DNA from: Acinetobacter sp. ANC 3832
GTDB taxonomy: Bacteria > Pseudomonadota > Gammaproteobacteria > Pseudomonadales > Moraxellaceae
Direction of reading: 5' to 3'
Assembly (NCBI RefSeq): GCF_002135415.1
Contig: NZ_NEGJ01000005.1
Span: 1 to 64,000 of the forward strand
DNA length: 64,000 bases
Made by a program: the position numbers and the translations under genes. Of the stretch, positions 3,948 through 11,216 are shown one piece after another. Below the pieces are notes generated by a model that was not told the origin of the DNA, did not search any database, and saw only the letters and a list, made by a program, of their open reading frames with translations. The stretch's first letter is position 1; every line of letters starts with the position of its first letter.

Positions 3948-4269
3948 ATTTGAATAAGATCCGCATATATTCAGGCGAGTTAAATGCGTTTGCTAAATAG
4001 ACTCGTGTCGCTTCTGCAACCTCAACCGAGCAATACACATCCCCTTTTCTCACAAGCTTCAATCCTAAAGAATCAACAAAAGCACTTATGAATTCGACTT
4101 GAGTCAAATTGTTGCTGTCTTTTTTATCGGTTTTCATTCTTGTGATAGTGCTTGCATCAACTCCCACCAATTCCGCAATCTCTTTTTGATTTTGAGAATC
4201 AAGGCAATGCAATATGAGCGACTCGTTATTGCGAGCGCTTGCAGATAATTCAATTGATACTTTGCTCAT
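3946..4269 (-). CDS. CII-family transcriptional activator-like protein
   Basis: A 107-residue protein with an N-terminal helix-turn-helix (residues about 25-50, NQKEIAELVGVDASTITRMKTD) followed by a helical region (LTQVEFISAFVDSLGLKLV), the layout of lambda CII proteins, which activate repressor and integrase promoters during the lysogeny decision. It is the second gene of the leftward operon, directly after the cro-like gene as in lambda. A good ribosome site (AGGA, spacing about 6) precedes the ATG. The C-terminal 35 residues are not typical of lambda CII, so the target sites cannot be predicted. Confidence 0.65.
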   Translation of the reverse strand: MSKVSIELSASARNNESLILHCLDSQNQKEIAELVGVDASTITRMKTDKKDSNNLTQVEFISAFVDSLGLKLVRKGDVYCSVEVAEATRVYLANAFNSPEYMRILFK

Positions 4270-4277
4270 GATGATTC

Positions 4278-4511
4278 CTAGGCGGTTAATTGCTCAAAAC
4301 TTTCTTTTAAAGATGGGCATAGCTCGACTGCTTTAAATTCACCTTTAGTGGCAACCTGCGCTCGAATAGCTACTAGTTCAGACATTTTTTTGGTACCACA
4401 AACCCAACCAGATACTGCGGGTTGTTTTACATTGAGGGCTTTGGCGGTGTTTTCCTGACCACCAAAGTGAGCTACTAGCTTCTGGAATTTATTATCGTTT
4501 GATTCAACCAT
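4278..4511 (-). CDS. Cro/YdaS-like repressor
   Basis: A 77-residue helix-turn-helix protein (KFQKLVAHFGGQENTAKALNVKQPAVSGWVCG, residues about 8-40), of the small YdaS/Cro type that binds the switch operators to favour lytic growth. An upstream in-frame ATG at 4559 exists, but the start at 4511 is preferred because GGAGA lies 7 bases before it and the longer version would run through the operator. It is the first gene of the leftward operon and diverges from cI. Confidence 0.75.
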   Translation of the reverse strand: MVESNDNKFQKLVAHFGGQENTAKALNVKQPAVSGWVCGTKKMSELVAIRAQVATKGEFKAVELCPSLKESFEQLTA

Positions 4512-4536
4512 GGTTATATCTCCATAAAATATAACC
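4512..4536 (-). promoter_or_regulatory. Hairpin with the cro ribosome site in its loop
   Basis: On the cro transcript, arms GGTTATA and TATAACC (7 bp, perfect) flank an 11-base loop containing the Shine-Dalgarno GGAGA, and the stem ends directly before the ATG. The arms also match operator half-sites (GGTTAT), so the same bases could be a degenerate operator rather than an RNA structure. Confidence 0.45.
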
Positions 4537-4539
4537 AAT

Positions 4540-4566
4540 ATTATAACTGTAGTTATCAATAGTCAA
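4540..4566 (-). promoter_or_regulatory. Predicted cro (early leftward) promoter
   Basis: On the minus strand TTGACT (4566-4561) is followed by an overlapping TATAATAT stretch. TATAAT lies 15 bases away and TAATAT lies 17 bases away, so the exact -10 is uncertain. One operator palindrome lies between the boxes and another overlaps the -35, so repressor binding would block it. Confidence 0.6.
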
Positions 4567-4603
4567 TAACTATAGTTATTTGATTACTTATAACTAAGGT
4601 TAT
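4543..4603. promoter_or_regulatory. Three CI/Cro operator palindromes
   Basis: Three 14-bp sites of form ATAACTNNRGTTAT: 4543-4556 (centre TGTA), 4566-4579 (centre TATA, perfect palindrome) and 4590-4603 (centre TAAG, one arm with GGTTAT). Centres are 23 and 24 bp apart, near two helical turns, as in the three-site lambda operators. They overlap the divergent cro and cI promoters. Confidence 0.8.
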
Positions 4604-4608
4604 ATATT
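4580..4608 (+). promoter_or_regulatory. Predicted cI promoter (PRM-like)
   Basis: TTGATT (4580-4585), a 17-base spacer, then TATATT (4603-4608). The third operator fills the spacer, which fits negative autoregulation of cI when this site is occupied. Transcription would begin near 4615, about 19 bases before the cI ATG. Confidence 0.65.
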
Positions 4609-4633
4609 TACATAAAGCTATTTGGTGTTTGTT

Positions 4634-5305
4634 ATGACTCTCCGAGACCGTTTAAAAGAATCCAGAAAGAAAGCAGGCAAGACGCAAGCAGAAGTTGCTG
4701 AAGCTGTCAAAATTTCCCAACCTGCATATCAAGCACTTGAATCTGGCAGAAATCAAAAATCAGCATTTCTCCCAATGATTGCACAGTACTTAGGTGTTGA
4801 TCCTTACTGGCTTACCACAGGCGGTGAAGGTGATTCTTTTCAAGAGAAAGAAGTTCATAAACCAACAATTGTTGAATATGGATCTGATAATGAATTTGTC
4901 TGGATAGATGTTGTTGAGGCTAACTTCTCATGTGGATCTGGCGAGTCTATTGAGTTTCACTTTGATGCAATCAATGGAAAAATACCTTTCCCACCTTCTT
5001 TTTTAAAAGAAAGGAATGTCACTGAAAAAACAATGAAGATCATTAAAGCTAAAGGCGACAGTATGTCGGACTTTATTAAAGATGGTGATTTAGTTGGTAT
5101 AAATTTAGCCCAAACTGATGTGATAGATGGTGAAATCTATGCAGTTTATCTGGCTGGTGAAGGCATGATAAAACAAATATTCAAAGAAGCTGATGGATCA
5201 CTAATACTTCATAGTCTTAATGAAAAATATAGAGATAAATTGGTTACTGAAGAGAATGGTAAAAATTTCAAAGTGATGGGTCGTCAGATTTGGCGTGCAG
5301 GATAA
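4634..5305 (+). CDS. CI-like phage repressor with S24 autoprotease domain
   Basis: A 223-residue repressor. Residues about 3-60 are a helix-turn-helix (TLRDRLKESRKKAGKTQAEVAEAVKISQPAYQALESG is its core). Residues about 110-220 are a LexA-like S24 peptidase with catalytic Ser in KGDSMSDF and Lys in GEGMIKQIF. A Cys-Gly in NFSCGSGES is the likely self-cleavage site, so RecA-stimulated cleavage should induce the prophage. ATG 4634 is preferred over the upstream TTG 4622 and GTG 4625; GGTG gives a weak ribosome site. It should bind the palindromes at 4543-4603 and 7211-7224. Confidence 0.9.
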   Translation: MTLRDRLKESRKKAGKTQAEVAEAVKISQPAYQALESGRNQKSAFLPMIAQYLGVDPYWLTTGGEGDSFQEKEVHKPTIVEYGSDNEFVWIDVVEANFSCGSGESIEFHFDAINGKIPFPPSFLKERNVTEKTMKIIKAKGDSMSDFIKDGDLVGINLAQTDVIDGEIYAVYLAGEGMIKQIFKEADGSLILHSLNEKYRDKLVTEENGKNFKVMGRQIWRAG

Positions 5306-5331
5306 TTAAAATTTCTTAAAAAGAGAACGTA

Positions 5332-5634
5332 ATGATCGCAACACTAAATAAATCCAAAACTGCGCTAACGATTAATCGTCAAGAATTTAAATTGGCTCTA
5401 GATAAAATTAGTGCAGGAATTGATAAACAAATAACCTCGCTTAAAAAAGCCAAGCAAAACTACGATACTGCGGAAATAGCAAGCGAGGTCATTAGTGAAG
5501 CAAATATCTTTGAAGCAATTATTGAAGGCTTTAACGAAGCAGAAGAAACCAATCTAAAGCTAACTGATATAACCAATCTTGAAGTGGCTCAAGGGTGGAT
5601 AGATGAATTTTTAGAAAAGTATTCGGATGTGTAA
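5332..5634 (+). CDS. Small acidic protein downstream of cI
   Basis: A 100-residue protein of unknown function, mostly helical, basic at the start and acidic at the end (EEFLEKY-like C-terminus). It lies 26 bases after cI and ends where the next reading frame begins, so all three genes to 7084 are probably transcribed together with cI in the lysogen. No membrane segment or known motif is visible. It could be an antitoxin-like or accessory partner of the next two proteins, but nothing in the sequence proves that. Confidence 0.5.
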   Translation: MIATLNKSKTALTINRQEFKLALDKISAGIDKQITSLKKAKQNYDTAEIASEVISEANIFEAIIEGFNEAEETNLKLTDITNLEVAQGWIDEFLEKYSDV

Positions 5635-5688
5635 ATGATAATTGCGAACTCGACGCAGTCCTTTATAAATGATCGGGAGGGGAATAAA

Positions 5689-6741
5689 ATGGGCTTTGAA
5701 ATTAGAAAGTTTAAAGATATTGATTTAAATGATAAATTTTTTGATTCACTAAAAACTGATTATGCAGAGTTTTCGGATTGGTTTGAAAAAAAATCTGGAA
5801 ATGGGGCAATTATACATTTTGATAAAACAGGACAGTTGAATGGGTTTCTATATCTAAAATTAGAAGATGAAATATTGGATATCGACCCCCCTAAAAATAA
5901 AGCATTAAGATTAAAAGTTGGAACCATGAAAATTGATGCTCATGGTACTCGGCTTGGCGAAAGGTTTATTAAAAAAATATTTGATTATGCATTGCTTAAG
6001 AATGTTACAGAAATATATGTTACGATTTTTGATAAACACAGATCTCTTATAGAGTTATTTCAAAGATATAATTTCAATATAATAGGTTTAAAGCATTCTA
6101 GTAATGGTAGTGAGAGTGTTTTTTCTAGAGCCATGTCTGGGACTGTAATAGCAGAATATCCTTTTATAAAATATAATAATAAAAAAAATAATATTTATTT
6201 TTTAAGTATTTATCCTGTATACCATTCAAGATTATTTCCAGATTCTATTTTAAAAACCGAGAGTAGCAGCAGTATTGTAAAAGATATTTCATATACAAAT
6301 AGTATCCATAAAATATATATTGCTGGTATGCGAGGTATGGATCAATTAAAGAAAGACGATATAATTATCATTTACAGAACGAAAGAAGATAATCAGCTAG
6401 CTTTATATTCAGCCGTATTTACTTCGATTTGTGTTATTGAAGAAACCAAGAGTATTTTTGAATTCACGGACTATGACTCATTTTACCAATATTGTAAAAA
6501 ATATAGTATTTTTAGTGATGATGAGTTACTGACTATTTACAAAAATAAAAAGTATCCATTTATTATTAAGATGTCTTATAATGTAGCATTAACGAAAAGA
6601 ATTATAAGAAAACATTTAATTGATATGCGTATAATGTCAAACTCTTCATATTCTGGGTTTGGATTATTGGATTATGAACAGCTACTTGACGTATTTAAAG
6701 TGAGTCAAACAAATGAAAGTATTATTATCAATCAAGCCTGA
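5689..6741 (+). CDS. GNAT acetyltransferase fused to a PUA-like C-terminal domain
   Basis: A 350-residue protein. Residues about 1-150 resemble a GNAT acetyltransferase (FEIRKFKDIDLND start; acetyl-CoA loop region HGTRLGERFIKKIFDYA; then EIYVTIFDKHRSLIELFQRYNF). Residues about 160-350 form a second domain with an EVE/PUA-like feel (KIYIAGMRGMDQLKKDDIIIIYRT). The ATG at 5689 is chosen over 5635 because GGAGGGG lies 6 bases before it and the GNAT fold begins there. It overlaps the ASCH gene by 29 bases. The unit lies directly behind cI, a place where temperate phages often carry defence or exclusion genes. Its substrate is unknown. Confidence 0.65.
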   Translation: MGFEIRKFKDIDLNDKFFDSLKTDYAEFSDWFEKKSGNGAIIHFDKTGQLNGFLYLKLEDEILDIDPPKNKALRLKVGTMKIDAHGTRLGERFIKKIFDYALLKNVTEIYVTIFDKHRSLIELFQRYNFNIIGLKHSSNGSESVFSRAMSGTVIAEYPFIKYNNKKNNIYFLSIYPVYHSRLFPDSILKTESSSSIVKDISYTNSIHKIYIAGMRGMDQLKKDDIIIIYRTKEDNQLALYSAVFTSICVIEETKSIFEFTDYDSFYQYCKKYSIFSDDELLTIYKNKKYPFIIKMSYNVALTKRIIRKHLIDMRIMSNSSYSGFGLLDYEQLLDVFKVSQTNESIIINQA

Positions 6742-7084
6742 ATTTGCTAATAAAATTCTAAATGGTGAGAAAAAGTTTGAATTTCGAAAATCACTTTTCA
6801 AACGTGATGGAATTAAAACTGTTCTTATTTATGCAACTATGCCAATAGGCAAGGTTATAGGTGAATTTGATATAGAGCATATCATTTCGAACTCACCTCA
6901 AGAAATTTGGAATGAAACCAGTGAGTTTTCAGGTATATCAAAATCTTTTTTTGATGATTATTTTGAAAATAGAAAGATGGCCTATGCAATTAAGGTTAAG
7001 CATGTTAGGGAATATTTAAATCCACAAGCTCTAGAAGACATAAAAGTAGGACTCAAAGCTCCTCAGTCATATGTATACATATGA
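6713..7084 (+). CDS. ASCH-domain protein
   Basis: A 123-residue single-domain protein of the ASCH/PUA-like superfamily. It has the opening pattern LLSIKPEFANKILNGEKKFEFRKSLF (residues 4-29), the GIKTVLIYATMPIGKVIGEFDI strand pair, and a C-terminal P-Q-S-Y-VYI. ASCH domains are predicted RNA- or modified-nucleotide-binding modules; some act as nucleases or amidohydrolases. It starts inside the GNAT gene and the pair is a compact module. An intrinsic terminator follows 16 bases after its stop. Function in this setting is unknown. Confidence 0.75.
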   Translation: MKVLLSIKPEFANKILNGEKKFEFRKSLFKRDGIKTVLIYATMPIGKVIGEFDIEHIISNSPQEIWNETSEFSGISKSFFDDYFENRKMAYAIKVKHVREYLNPQALEDIKVGLKAPQSYVYI

Positions 7085-7100
7085 ATTAAAAACTCCAAAC

Positions 7101-7126
7101 AACCCACCCAGTGTGGGTTTTCTTTT
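7101..7126 (+). terminator. Terminator of the cI-cargo transcript
   Basis: Arms AACCCAC (7101-7107) and GTGGGTT (7113-7119) with a five-base loop, followed by TTTCTTTT. It closes the cI to ASCH transcript. Confidence 0.75.
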
Positions 7127-7198
7127 GCTTATTAAAGCATAAATAACAATTACAGTTATTTAAATTATAATTAAAGTAATATTATCTTTGATATATTC

Positions 7199-7227
7199 TT
7201 GACTATTAAAATAACTATAGTTATATT
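7199..7227 (+). promoter_or_regulatory. Predicted PL-like promoter of the recombination operon
   Basis: TTGACT (7199-7204), a 17-base spacer and TATATT (7222-7227), a strong sigma-70 match. A perfect copy of the CI operator lies across the spacer and -10. Transcription would begin near 7234 and run through the small genes, ERF and the excisionase-like gene. Confidence 0.75.
7211..7224. promoter_or_regulatory. Remote CI operator
   Basis: ATAACTATAGTTAT, identical to the central operator at 4566-4579. A degenerate copy with three mismatches lies at 7146-7159. The position across a promoter predicts repression in the lysogen and allows DNA looping with the cI-cro sites 2.6 kb away. Confidence 0.75.
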
Positions 7228-7297
7228 TATCTCACAAACAAACAAAAAACGCACCGACTCTCAAATCAAATGCGCTTTTGCTAACAACGAGGTAAGT

Positions 7298-7501
7298 ATG
7301 AAACAAAACCCTATTCAAAGTCAAACAACTCCACAAGGTACGCTGTACCAAAGCCCAACCTCTACCAACACAGTAAAGTACAAATCTAAATCAGGTTTGG
7401 TCTTAGCTTCAATAATTATCATTGTGATGTGCGTTGGGGGTCTCTTTAGTTGCACAGCTCATCAAAACGCTGTTGCAAAGATTGGGAGTGCTCAAGCATG
7501 A
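7298..7501 (+). CDS. Small membrane protein, first gene of the recombination operon
   Basis: A 67-residue protein with a polar N-terminal 30 residues, one membrane segment (SGLVLASIIIIVMCVGGLFSC, about residues 32-52) and a short tail. ATG 7298 is preferred because GAGG lies 5-6 bases upstream; the longer frame would begin inside the promoter. Its end overlaps the next start (ATGA). The function is unknown; small early membrane proteins of phages often act on host envelope or exclusion. Confidence 0.6.
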   Translation: MKQNPIQSQTTPQGTLYQSPTSTNTVKYKSKSGLVLASIIIIVMCVGGLFSCTAHQNAVAKIGSAQA

Positions 7502-8040
7502 ATACTCAAACCATTAAACAAACCCTCGCACCTGCTCAAGTCTTTGAAGCTTTAGCTAGAGGTTTAAATATCGACTATGCCGAAGTAGAAACTAACGATT
7601 GGGAGCTTTTAACTCCTCAAGCACGTTTAGGTTTTGCAGACTTCTTTGGTGGCTTCATTAAATTTCGCTTCTCTCAAGGTTTAGATAACGGCATTCAACG
7701 GGATCTAAAAGATAAAGCAGCTCAATACTTCTCTGAGTTTCTTAATTTAGATGGTGATAAAAATGAGCGCTATCGTGTAGGTAAAGATCGCCCTAGCTTT
7801 TATGTTCTTAAGCCTATTGGTCGAAGTGGAATCAACCTAGATGGTTTCGATATTTATAAAGAATCTCTAGGCAGTCTCATTCTTCTAGACAAAGCCACTG
7901 CTCCTGAATGGCTAATTAAAGCATTACTGGTTGCACGTAAAGCTAAGCGCAATGCTGAGTACAACCAAGTCTTAGAAAATATTGGCCACTTTCAAACACC
8001 AGAATATAAGAAATGGTCTAAAAGCCATCGTTCGGTTTAA
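7498..8040 (+). CDS. Hypothetical phage protein upstream of ERF
   Basis: A 180-residue cytoplasmic protein I do not recognise. It has acidic and helical parts (NDWELLTPQARLGFADFFGGFIKFRFSQG) and a beta-rich middle (FYVLKPIGRSGINLDGFDIYKESLGSLILLD). Start ATG 7498 overlaps the stop of the preceding gene by four bases. Placed just before the annealase gene, it is probably part of phage recombination or DNA metabolism. Confidence 0.55.
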   Translation: MNTQTIKQTLAPAQVFEALARGLNIDYAEVETNDWELLTPQARLGFADFFGGFIKFRFSQGLDNGIQRDLKDKAAQYFSEFLNLDGDKNERYRVGKDRPSFYVLKPIGRSGINLDGFDIYKESLGSLILLDKATAPEWLIKALLVARKAKRNAEYNQVLENIGHFQTPEYKKWSKSHRSV

Positions 8041-8051
8041 GGAGAATTATC

Positions 8052-8819
8052 ATGTCTACAAATACTCAAAACCAAATACCTGCTGAACAAAACATTAATG
8101 TGCTTCAACAAATTCAACTTGAATTAAAAGCACCGAAAAGTAAAAGAAATACATTTGGTAATTATAACTATCGTAACTGCGAAGACATTCTTGAAGCAGT
8201 TAAGCCACTTCTTCAAAAATACAATGCAACACTCATCATCACTGATGAAGTTCAAGAGATTGGACCTGTTGTCGTAGTCACAGCAAAAGTGATCCTAACT
8301 GATGCCAATGGTAAAGAAACGGTAGTCAAAGCCCATGCAGGTGTAGAGATTAGCAAGAAAGGTATGGATGTAGCTCAGACCTTTGGTGCATCGAGTTCTT
8401 ATGCTCGTAAATATGCACTCAATGGTTTGTTCTTAATTGATGATACCAAAGACTATGACTCTGATGAGTATCACAACCAAGTCAATAATGGCTCTGCCCG
8501 AAATAATAATCAGCAAAATAGACAGACACAGCAGTCTGCTCCTGCTCAAAATAACGCTCAACGTAACCAAACGCAGAATCAAAATAATCAACAATCAAAT
8601 AGCCAACAAAAGCCTAAACGTAGCCAATCCCAACTCTTTAATGATGCTTTGAATGCCATTAAAAGCACATCGGACAAAGGTGTTCTTAAAGCGGCTGCAA
8701 ATAGATTTAAAGGTACGACCTATGAAGCAGGTATTACCAATGCTTGTCGTGCTCGAGCAGATCAAATGGGATGGCCAACACAAAGTAATACTCAACAAAA
8801 CAATCAAATGCACCATTGA
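8052..8819 (+). CDS. ERF-family single-strand annealing protein
   Basis: A 255-residue protein. Residues about 15-140 match the ERF family: LQQIQLELKAPKSKRNTFGNYNYRNCEDILEAVKPLL, then VVTAKVIL and GVEISKKGMDVAQTFGASSSYARKYALNGLF, the family's core. ERF proteins anneal complementary single strands during phage recombination and genome circularisation. Residues about 145-195 are a glutamine/asparagine-rich linker, and the last 60 residues form a small helical domain that may contact SSB or a nuclease. A GGAG site precedes the ATG. No partner exonuclease gene is evident beside it. Confidence 0.85.
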   Translation: MSTNTQNQIPAEQNINVLQQIQLELKAPKSKRNTFGNYNYRNCEDILEAVKPLLQKYNATLIITDEVQEIGPVVVVTAKVILTDANGKETVVKAHAGVEISKKGMDVAQTFGASSSYARKYALNGLFLIDDTKDYDSDEYHNQVNNGSARNNNQQNRQTQQSAPAQNNAQRNQTQNQNNQQSNSQQKPKRSQSQLFNDALNAIKSTSDKGVLKAAANRFKGTTYEAGITNACRARADQMGWPTQSNTQQNNQMHH

Positions 8820-8837
8820 TGTGCTCGAGGAGAAGCA

Positions 8838-9008
8838 ATGAAATTTACATATTCTACGGCGACCCGAACACTCACTGTGTTCGGGGTAAAGATGACCCAC
8901 GTGTTTAGCAACGTCGGTGTGGGTGAAATTGAAGAACTAGTCACGGATGCAAAATTTAAAGAAGCGAACTGGAGGTCCAAGGATGGAAATTCTTATTTTG
9001 TGGCTTGA
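8838..9008 (+). CDS. Small phage protein (56 residues)
   Basis: A 56-residue reading frame starting MKFTYSTATRTLTVFGVKM and ending GNSYFVA, with a strong ribosome site (GAGGAGA) before the ATG. It is beta-rich at the start and acidic in the middle. Position between ERF and further small genes, the good start signal and tight spacing support it as real. Confidence 0.55.
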   Translation: MKFTYSTATRTLTVFGVKMTHVFSNVGVGEIEELVTDAKFKEANWRSKDGNSYFVA

Positions 9009-9983: not shown

Positions 9984-10003
9984 GGGGATTTATTCCCCTT
10001 TTT
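9984..10003 (+). terminator. Terminator between the excisionase-like gene and integrase
   Basis: Arms GGGGA and TCCCC with a five-base loop followed by five T on the plus strand. It overlaps the integrase stop codon. Confidence 0.65.
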
Positions 10004-11216
10004 CATACCCTGAAAAAACAATATCTTCAATTTCTTGCATTGCCATTCTTAGTTTTTTATCGCTAATTTGAACATAACCTTCAGTCACATCAGATGAAAC
10101 TGTGTGATTTAAAAGTCGTTTTATTGTGTATTGGCCATAATCTAAATTTTCAGCAATAGAGCTAAATGTTCTGCGTAAATCATGAAAAGTAAACTCCACT
10201 CCACTCGCCTCTATTACTTTTGCTTTAGCTTCATATAAGTGTGTCGTATAGCCTTTCAATTTTGAACGTGGTGAAGCAAATACATAATCGTTATATTGTT
10301 GTTCTTTACGACTTTTCATTATTTCCCAAAGCCTATCACCCATAGGTAAAGTATGAGGGTCATCATTTTTAGGATCTAACGAAGTAATCCATCCATACTT
10401 TAAGTCGATTGCATCCCAAGTTAACGTTTCACATTCTTTACGTCTAAAACCTGTCAAAACTAATGTTAATAAAAAGTCTCTAACAGTATTTCGTTCTTGA
10501 CGTAAAGCTGTGAAATTCATAACAGCATTGACCCAATCACCTATTTGCTCTTGTTTAACGTAACCTTTTCTACGTTTTATTTTATTCCATGTTCGCTTTG
10601 CTTTAAGGGTCGCAACTGGATTGGTTGTATTTATTAGTGAATTATCTTGCTCATCAAGAAAGTGCTCTACAGAAAAGTTAAATATTGCTCTAAATACAGC
10701 CATTGCAATATTTGCTTGTGCCGGGCTATTTTCAGTGAGTTCTGCATATTTCTCATGTACATGGGTTCTGGTTATATCAATAAGCTTTAAATTTTTCCAT
10801 TCAGATAAGTATTGGTTCACTGCCCTGTTGTAATCTTCAAGACTTCTACTTTTTAATTTTCGATGTTTTAGATATTCATCATATGCAATAGTTAAAGTAG
10901 GTTGTTGTTTTGACACCTTATCATTGATGATTAATTGTTCTCTTTTTTCTTTTTTAATTTGGTTCGGATTGTAACCTTGCGCCATTTGTGAAAGTAAGCC
11001 CTGTGCTAAAATTCGTGCCTGAGCTAATGTTAGATTTCCATGTAGACCAATCGTAGACCTAATAGCCTTGCCATTAACTTTTTTCTCAACAACATAAGTT
11101 TTACAAGTTGTGTTAACACGAATAGCAAAACCAATTAACTCACTATCACGATAGATACCAGGCTCACTGAGATTATCTATATATGTTTTTGTGAGTTTTA
11201 TTCTTGTGTTAGCCAT
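9990..11216 (-). CDS. Tyrosine-recombinase integrase with DUF4102 arm-binding domain
   Basis: A 408-residue phage integrase. Residues about 1-90 are the arm-type DNA-binding domain (RIKLTKTYIDNLSEPGIYRD... ARILAQGLLSQMAQGYNP). Residues about 105-190 are the core-binding domain. Residues about 215-395 are catalytic, with R258 in LTGFRRKE, H345 and R348 in HDLRRT, H371 in LLNHT and the nucleophile Y381. All catalytic residues are present, so the enzyme looks intact. It integrates and, with an excisionase, excises the element. It is transcribed toward the prophage interior, with its 5' side facing ybgC, so the attachment site should lie between 11217 and 11385. Confidence 0.92.
   Translation of the reverse strand: MANTRIKLTKTYIDNLSEPGIYRDSELIGFAIRVNTTCKTYVVEKKVNGKAIRSTIGLHGNLTLAQARILAQGLLSQMAQGYNPNQIKKEKREQLIINDKVSKQQPTLTIAYDEYLKHRKLKSRSLEDYNRAVNQYLSEWKNLKLIDITRTHVHEKYAELTENSPAQANIAMAVFRAIFNFSVEHFLDEQDNSLINTTNPVATLKAKRTWNKIKRRKGYVKQEQIGDWVNAVMNFTALRQERNTVRDFLLTLVLTGFRRKECETLTWDAIDLKYGWITSLDPKNDDPHTLPMGDRLWEIMKSRKEQQYNDYVFASPRSKLKGYTTHLYEAKAKVIEASGVEFTFHDLRRTFSSIAENLDYGQYTIKRLLNHTVSSDVTEGYVQISDKKLRMAMQEIEDIVFSGYEKGE

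Follow-up and report, generated by a model that had tools for sequence, protein, structure and literature searches.

Operons in which a GNAT-EVE or a PIN-GNAT-EVE protein is encoded next to an ASCH protein are predicted toxin-antitoxin (TA) systems, according to the available text of Bell et al. 2020 (PMC7641849). By the same text, the form without PIN is frequent in beta- and gammaproteobacterial prophages, and no module of these systems has been experimentally characterised. In this study, we analysed a stretch of 64,000 nucleotides (nt) of Acinetobacter sp. ANC 3832 (contig NZ_NEGJ01000005.1, positions 1 to 64,000; hereafter the window). A prophage at its left end carries such a GNAT-EVE gene and an overlapping ASCH gene behind the repressor gene cI. 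We call the two products GevT and GevA, after the annotation of their homologues in phage PhiR47_2. The pair resembles the operons in the available text of Bell et al. in architecture, ASCH partner and gammaproteobacterial prophage setting; unlike them it has no PIN domain and no AAA_17 gene, and substrate and role are predicted there too. We give about an even chance to the reading that the pair is a prophage-borne two-gene TA or abortive-infection cassette of the GNAT-EVE + ASCH kind, lying in a slot like that of rexAB in lambda, where it would be expressed along with CI in the lysogen, and acting by the mechanism proposed below.

Both window proteins matched the PADLOC system PDC-M11 over nearly their full length: GevT matched PDC-M11A (E about 2e-125), as did all 93 rows of its alignment, and GevA matched PDC-M11B (E = 2e-50). 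PDC-M11 is a candidate entry (we take PDC to stand for phage-defence candidate). Some of its models extend the N-terminus by about 90-160 residues; this part holds the PIN domain in relatives and is missing in the window. The PHROGs matched by GevT (phrog_6345/30943) and by GevA (phrog_3136) are without assigned function. The PhiR47_2 homologues (GenBank PV340567) were annotated by their depositors as 'GevT toxin' and 'GevA antitoxin'. Literature searches for these names as toxin and antitoxin, and for PDC-M11, found no paper; one paper names in its available text a phage PhiR47.1, not the GevT/GevA pair. By these matches the window pair belongs to the already nominated GNAT-EVE + ASCH kind (PDC-M11/GevTA). 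A first-pass annotation of this DNA had known of no described system of exactly these two genes and the small gene before them; for the pair this is superseded by PDC-M11, by the TA systems predicted by Bell et al. and by GevT/GevA in PV340567.

The GNAT-EVE and ASCH genes travel as a unit, beyond chance. GevT relatives were compared in the best 80 of 260 genome loci and the best 80 of 151 viral loci (numbered with the prefix L). On the same strand and no more than 1.5 kb behind the GevT gene, an ASCH gene was found in 75/80 genome and 78/80 viral loci (153/160). The 150 loci in which GevT matched in one frame and over nearly its full length were grouped at 85% identity into 92 clusters; the 10 whose GevT was split, broken or matched in part were omitted. 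The two genes overlapped by 23 nt in 78 clusters, by 29 nt in 10 and by 38 nt in 1, and 3 had no direct partner. The overlap in the window is 29 nt (6713-6741), as the first-pass annotation had read it. The converse search started from the best 80 of 190 GevA relatives, which gave 79 new loci; 66 of these have GevT in a single frame and 12 have it in pieces, and it is absent from 1. The distance matrices of GevT and GevA were correlated (r = 0.58, 89 pairs), a value reached by none of 2000 permutations, the largest of which gave 0.13. Gene order, overlap register and co-inheritance were computed directly, and together they bear out the earlier view of these two genes as a unit.

Seven GevT loci had no direct ASCH partner (L036, L046, L056, L077, L156, L157 and L041). 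An ASCH match lies elsewhere in the locus in the rhizobial-type L036, L046 and L056 (weak in L036), and an ASCH gene does so in L077, L156 and L157. In L046 and L056 the ASCH domain is part of an XRE-like-ASCH protein (XRE by eye), and a second GNAT-EVE-like gene is present. GevT without any ASCH in the locus was met once in 160 (L041), where GevT is interrupted by an in-frame stop. Two side observations concern such loci. A gene of about 385-390 amino acids (aa) of unknown kind lies directly behind GNAT-EVE in L036, L046 and L056, its L046 copy being without Pfam match. The orphan GevA of L274 has as neighbours another ASCH-like gene and, on the opposite strand, a large frame with a GNAT-like stretch (both by eye).

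PDC-M11A matched (E<=1e-20) in 6/369 genomes of a class-wide sample and in 2/119 genomes of the genus, this one included in both. In E. coli, 274/5426 genomes match the pair region of PhiR47_2 at one place over at least 80% of its length, and one such locus that was opened has the pair behind a repressor and before gam-bet-exo. The GNAT-EVE protein matched in 30 records of a plasmid collection (18 covering at least 80% of the protein), and GevT homologues were found in 16 phage records, all at <60% identity. The pair lies behind a gene-A-like gene and small genes and before a portal-like gene in SopEPhi, and between tRNAs and terminase in the Lactobacillus prophage Lj965; it is also present in a Helicobacter prophage, P7.1 and psiM100. 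In Lj965 (L003, 3322-5417) the homologues stand directly behind a cluster of four phage tRNA genes. A locus in another genome of the genus, L344 (G040 contig 12), has an AAA_17 gene, a 510-aa PIN-GNAT-EVE-like protein and an ASCH gene; gatB- and gatA-like genes are its neighbours by eye, and no phage genes were recognised in its 6.5 kb.

The four genes described in the first-pass annotation were confirmed, all on the + strand: cI at 4634-5305, a gene at 5332-5634, a GNAT open reading frame (ORF) ending at 6741 and the ASCH gene at 6713-7084. The features of the locus are as follows:

4281-4514, - strand: Cro-like protein (P22_Cro; also YdaS), profile match, E = 2e-11
4543-4556, 4566-4579 and 4590-4603, no strand: three CI-operator-like palindromes, like right operators (OR), 23-24 bp apart, between cro and cI, from a motif search
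4634-5305, + strand: CI-type repressor (HTH_3 + Peptidase_S24), E = 5e-19
5332-5634, + strand: small acidic protein, phrog_15679, E = 5e-56; left edge of the slot
5689-6741, + strand: GevT-like GNAT-EVE fusion, putative toxin, 350 aa, from PDC-M11A and the AlphaFold2 model
5689-6138, + strand: GNAT part of GevT, residues 1-150, from the predicted fold
6160-6738, + strand: EVE/PUA-like part of GevT, residues about 158-350, from the predicted fold
6713-6741, + strand: overlap of the GevT and GevA genes, 29 nt, one of two conserved registers (23 or 29 nt)
6713-7084, + strand: GevA-like ASCH protein, putative antitoxin, 123 aa, from PDC-M11B, PF04266 and the AlphaFold2 model
7101-7119, + strand: intrinsic terminator, conserved right edge of the slot, from the terminator scan and the locus comparison
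7146-7224, no strand: operators like left operators (OL), 7211-7224 (exact, identical to 4566-4579) and weaker 7146-7159 and 7167-7180, from a motif search
9990-11216: integrase, named from its own sequence

The genome, 3.8 Mb in 35 contigs, has the window at the start of its contig 31, and the prophage region left of the integrase is truncated by the contig end. The guanine plus cytosine (GC) content is 27.9% over the pair, 38.6% on both flanks and 34.7% in the small gene. No structured RNA of Rfam was matched in 4400-7500 at gathering scores.

The slot that holds the cargo pair is bounded by the small gene on its left and by a conserved terminator on its right, followed by CI-like operators. 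Window DNA at 4001-9000 was compared with 80 loci of the small gene (L169-L248, the best 80 of 183 viral-contig relatives) and with L343. The small gene was common to all 81, and the left match ended within 5620-5699 in 80/81; the exception, L186, is the other GevTA carrier, in which it continues to 7126. Right-hand matches were found in 53 loci and started within 7080-7119, the end of GevA and the terminator, in 51/53. These sharp edges were computed directly. The region 4400-7400 has 5 terminator-like sites against 1.4 +/- 1.1 in shuffles, and 3/5 are readings of the hairpin at 7101-7119. In the window and 16 of the 53 loci aligned, two pairs of its stem show compensated changes, and at one of these pairs 8 cells are gapped or broken. 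In 64/80 loci a hairpin with a tail of terminator form follows the small gene as the next motif of its type, at 65 to 3667 nt, the loci extending at most about 4 kb past that gene. The gene group does end at a terminator, as had been proposed, and this terminator is conserved. Behind it, the 14-bp palindrome at 7211-7224 is identical to the middle one of the three between cro and cI (4566-4579). The operator motif ATAACTNTAGTTAT (<=2 mismatches, both strands counted) has 11 matches in the 64 kb, of which 10 lie at 4543-4603 and 7146-7224; shuffles gave a mean of 3.3 with a standard deviation of 2.3, and 11 matches were reached in 1/100.

The contents of the slot differ widely among related prophages. 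Within 1.3 kb, 64 different orders of + strand genes were counted among the 80 loci, and contig ends shorten some of them. From the families listed, 30 larger cargo proteins were chosen by hand, and 18 of them matched PADLOC models at E<=1e-5, including PD-Lambda-5 A and B, RmrT/RmrA, NsnA, Hp1/Hp2, IetS and PDC-M68B. Some of these matches are weak or due to common ATPase or methyltransferase domains, and 12/30 match nothing. These contents support the reading of the slot as a site of exchangeable, often defence- or TA-like cargo, in agreement with what the first-pass annotation had expected of this position.

The GNAT ORF can be read as 368 aa from 5635 or as 350 aa from the ATG at 5689. The start at 5689 is more probable, because the motif GGAGGGG (5676-5682) is placed 6 nt ahead of it, 5635 lacks a motif of this type, and the family profiles with the best scores begin at residue 21 of the 368-aa form (one weaker profile begins at 11). 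An N-terminal PIN domain is absent, since the GNAT domain starts at residue 1 of the 350-aa form and <=18 residues precede it in the long form. The AlphaFold2 model of GevT, built from 93 sequences, has a predicted local distance difference test (pLDDT) score of 92. Residues 1-150 align with N-terminal acetyltransferases (NAT) and RimI at Z 13.7-15.8 among the 50 matches listed, the best being 2ob0 (Z 15.8, root mean square deviation 2.4 over 138 residues). NAT and RimI lead these matches; as a guide to the substrate this was set aside, a common fold saying nothing of substrate. TacT and AtaT are not among the 50 structural matches listed, which excludes nothing. The GevT model also matches chains of ZmASCH, an ASCH protein of Zymomonas mobilis, including 5y6b (Foldseek target template modelling (TM) score 0.69-0.70); the output gives no residue range, and we assigned these matches to the C-terminal half. 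Pfam families at E<=0.01 were found in homologues (EVE in 8/93, Acetyltransf_10 in 22/93) and none in the window GevT itself. Model, ZmASCH fold matches and EVE hits support a GNAT domain followed by an EVE/PUA-like domain, and so agree with the second PUA-like domain first proposed from the letters alone. The last glycine of the presumed coenzyme A (CoA) loop (G90) is invariant, and binding of an acyl-CoA by GevT is likely on this evidence.

A split form was observed in L029, L038, L040, L094, L127, L136, L260, L269, L272, L273, L275, L304 and L305, in which GNAT and EVE halves are followed by ASCH. In these loci a stop at the GNAT/EVE linker, with another ATG or GTG close by, separates two frames, which suggests that the two halves can work as separate chains. 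The closest GevT relative among the loci compared is IMGVR_UViG_3300022659_000304 (L097/L186/L325), at 69% over the best segment. In this Acinetobacter-type prophage GevT is broken into several frames and GevA is largely open.

GevA carries the ASCH domain first ascribed to it (PF04266, E = 5e-6), and its AlphaFold2 model has a pLDDT of 96.6. Its nearest solved relative is ZmASCH (sequence E = 2e-22, query TM 0.88-0.90). The available text on ZmASCH (PMC5615036) reports that it binds nucleic acid and in vitro breaks down single-stranded RNA, and that Tyr47, Lys53 and Ser128 contribute. Tyr47 corresponds to GevA Y40 (84/84), Ser128 to S119 (83/84), Gln127 to Q118 (84/84) and Arg32 to R25 (84/84). 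GevA is ZmASCH-like by profile, predicted fold and RNA-cleft residues, the Lys53 position excepted. Predicted folds and conserved residues were, like the gene order, computed directly. Separately, GevA (6713-7081) resembles the C-terminal domain of the L22 ribosomal-protein fusion NF008917 (E = 6e-16, far below the model cut-off), a weak hint of the ribosome. A search for the genomic partner of ZmASCH gave no match at 1e-30 in 385 genomes of the class of G095; run without a positive control, it shows nothing.

GevT is most likely an acyltransferase toxin that is directed at nucleic acid and held in check by the ASCH protein. We propose that its GNAT domain would bind an acyl-CoA, while the EVE/PUA-like domain would dock it on a nucleotide, probably a modified one, in RNA (tRNA or rRNA likelier than DNA). 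Acylation at the docked nucleotide would stop translation. GevA, translated from the overlapping start, would hold GevT inactive, through direct binding or by masking the RNA target of GevT with a Tyr-bearing PUA-type pocket of its own. This balance would be disturbed when another phage superinfects or the prophage is lost, and GevT would then stop growth. The PIN-GNAT-EVE relatives in psiM100 (L004) and G040 (L344), with PIN assigned by eye and from Bell et al., point to RNA. We infer toxicity, neutralisation, the RNA target, acylation and phage exclusion from the features above, together with expression with cI.

Several observations weigh against this reading. PDC-M11 is a candidate entry and not a tested system, and two other PDC candidates showed no evidence of defence activity when tested, according to the available text of PMC12409345. 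The position of the usual GNAT tyrosine in GevT, residue 124, is F in 56, L in 31 and Y in 3 of 93 sequences; it was assigned only by motif in alignments with PaiA and Naa50. In the published text available on these toxins, a conserved tyrosine acts on acetyl-CoA (TacT Y140, AtaT Y144). A TacT/AtaT-type active site in GevT is doubtful because the tyrosine position is mostly F or L, and the transfer chemistry may differ or be lost. In GevA, Lys53 of ZmASCH is replaced by G46 (G in 67/84), and the adjoining K47 is K in 52/84. The genes upstream of the pair (same strand, <=600 nt) are mostly of other kinds: 64 were found among the 92 clusters, L042 (contig end) and L051 (very long) were omitted, and HTH_3 was matched in 6/62, Peptidase_S24 in 5/62 and AAA_17 in 9/62. 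Promoter-like sites are not in excess (17 against 15.4 +/- 4.2 in shuffles), and because of this we infer the expression of the pair with cI from the layout alone. The earlier claim of transcription with cI in the lysogen stands as regards position, the genes lying on the + strand within the expected reach of cI transcription and ahead of the conserved terminator; the transcription itself is an expectation. Two further ideas were dropped: adjacency to cI as a property of the pair itself is ruled out by the upstream scan, and a promoter of its own is not claimed for the pair, promoter-like sites being at shuffle level.

Other explanations of the pair were weighed against the TA or abortive-infection cassette. 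It might only stabilise its carrier element by addiction, without any anti-phage role. The plasmid records and the varied prophage positions described above fit this, and candidate defence systems can fail when tested (available text of PMC12409345). We still think it unlikely, because the defence-model matches in the same slot of relatives (18/30 chosen proteins) favour, without showing, a role in conflict. Distinctly unlikely, in our view, is a role in counter-defence or DNA marking, in which GevT would acylate a (perhaps modified) DNA base and the ASCH protein would read or regulate it, which would either shield the prophage's DNA from host restriction or label DNA of foreign origin. DNA-base acetylation was proposed by Iyer et al., as reported in the available text of Bell et al. 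(PMC7641849), who also suggest that GNAT-EVE might protect phages from host restriction-modification, and the XRE-like DNA-binding domains on some ASCH partners (L046, L056; by eye) would suit such a role. On the other side, ZmASCH, the nearest solved relative, is reported in the text available to cut single-stranded RNA and not single-stranded DNA in vitro, though binding both; the PIN-fused relatives and a conserved partner overlap typical of TA pairs likewise speak against the DNA role, and none of the three is decisive. A writer and eraser pair, in which GevT would N-acetylate a nucleoside (like N4-acetylcytidine, ac4C) and GevA would hydrolyse the product like the ASCH enzyme YqfB, is improbable. 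GevA and YqfB have the ASCH fold in common (Foldseek rank 19, E = 2e-3, query TM 0.59), but ZmASCH is much closer to GevA, and the GevA profile against the single YqfB sequence was not significant (hhalign probability 2.9%, 27 columns). In that non-significant alignment, Thr24 of YqfB, which we take to be its catalytic residue, faces the invariant E23 of GevA (84/84).

The first-pass annotation had proposed a module of three genes, with the small protein, the GNAT-EVE protein and the ASCH protein forming one functional system. The three genes are adjacent in the window, and again in a viral contig of Acinetobacter type (L186 = L097 = L325) whose GevT is broken. Searching the 80 small-gene loci with the window proteins (tblastn, E<=1e-5) gave GevT and GevA homologues behind the small gene in L186 only; the pair is absent beside it in 79/80, and because of this the trio is not a unit. 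Conversely, the window's small protein was found in that one contig only among the GevT and GevA loci (tblastn, E<=1e-8). A random distribution of the genes in other genomes, named beforehand as counter-evidence, is what we found for the trio and not for the pair. The small gene's GC content and conservation also fit the backbone better than the pair, and a three-gene system is highly improbable: the cargo is the pair alone.

The small gene is conserved prophage backbone and lies outside the cargo pair. Its product is acidic as first described, although mildly so (isoelectric point 4.5, 18 D/E against 11 K/R), and the gene is present in 31/119 genomes of the genus, its own genome counted. A frame of at least 150 aa ends just 5' of it in 79/80 loci (none in L194). 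These frames give 64 distinct proteins, of which 62 have an S24 repressor domain (63/65 once the CI of the window is added); a restriction-subunit domain was matched by one member of this set. The CI repressors before the small gene go down to 15% identity with the window CI. The small protein has a mean identity of 92% between loci and a median ratio of nonsynonymous to synonymous substitution (dN/dS) of about 0.06 (392/400 sampled pairs usable, 74 distinct DNA sequences), so it is strongly selected in its own right and is no dedicated partner of the cargo. Strongly conserved, acidic and placed behind very divergent CI repressors, phrog_15679 is possibly worth a study of its own. A second copy in the same genome belongs to another prophage (L343, G000 contig 34, 120500-128500). 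The cargo behind that copy is an IrrE-type peptidase and DUF4411, then an acetamidase-like gene, and terminator-region matches lie behind the DUF4411 gene and behind the acetamidase-like gene alike.

Taking slot and pair together, we speculate, with somewhat less confidence than even, that the pair is one plug in an 'immunity dock' of Acinetobacter prophages, framed by phrog_15679 and the terminator and filled with interchangeable lysogen-expressed TA or defence cassettes. The small protein may regulate any such cassette, and toxin and antitoxin would compete for one modified RNA nucleotide through related PUA-type pockets. The slot as an exchange site is a more useful result than the pair. 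With its sharp edges and very different contents in 80 loci, it is directly minable for lysogen-expressed defence or TA genes, which is relevant to a genus with important hospital pathogens.

Compared with known systems, GevA resembles ZmASCH (5gus, 5guq) in the ASCH fold and most RNA-cleft residues, and differs in identity (27-28% in the structural match) and at the Lys53 position. The TacT and AtaT toxins share with GevT the GNAT fold and the place of toxin in a two-gene pair, which is predicted for GevT. Their partner is an RHH/DUF1778 antitoxin, whereas the window partner is an ASCH protein; GevT also has F or L at the presumed catalytic-tyrosine equivalent in 87/93 sequences, and an extra EVE-like domain. 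Phage lambda has the layout cI-rexA-rexB-timm-OL, and here too genes lie between cI and a terminator ahead of OL-like sites; position alone is compared, and no homology is claimed. The closest case is PhiR47_2, in which GNAT-EVE and an overlapping ASCH gene likewise lie directly behind cI and before a kil-gam-bet-exo operon. Its GevT is 47.2% identical to that of the window; it differs from the window in its overlap of 23 nt (29 nt in the window) and in having GevT next to cI without an intervening small gene. The pair is a known, apparently uncharacterised candidate, and this copy adds an Acinetobacter prophage example at the same place behind cI as E. coli GevTA. The interest lies in this placement, the same pair occupying the rex-like slot of a lambda-like phage of E. 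coli and of an Acinetobacter prophage.

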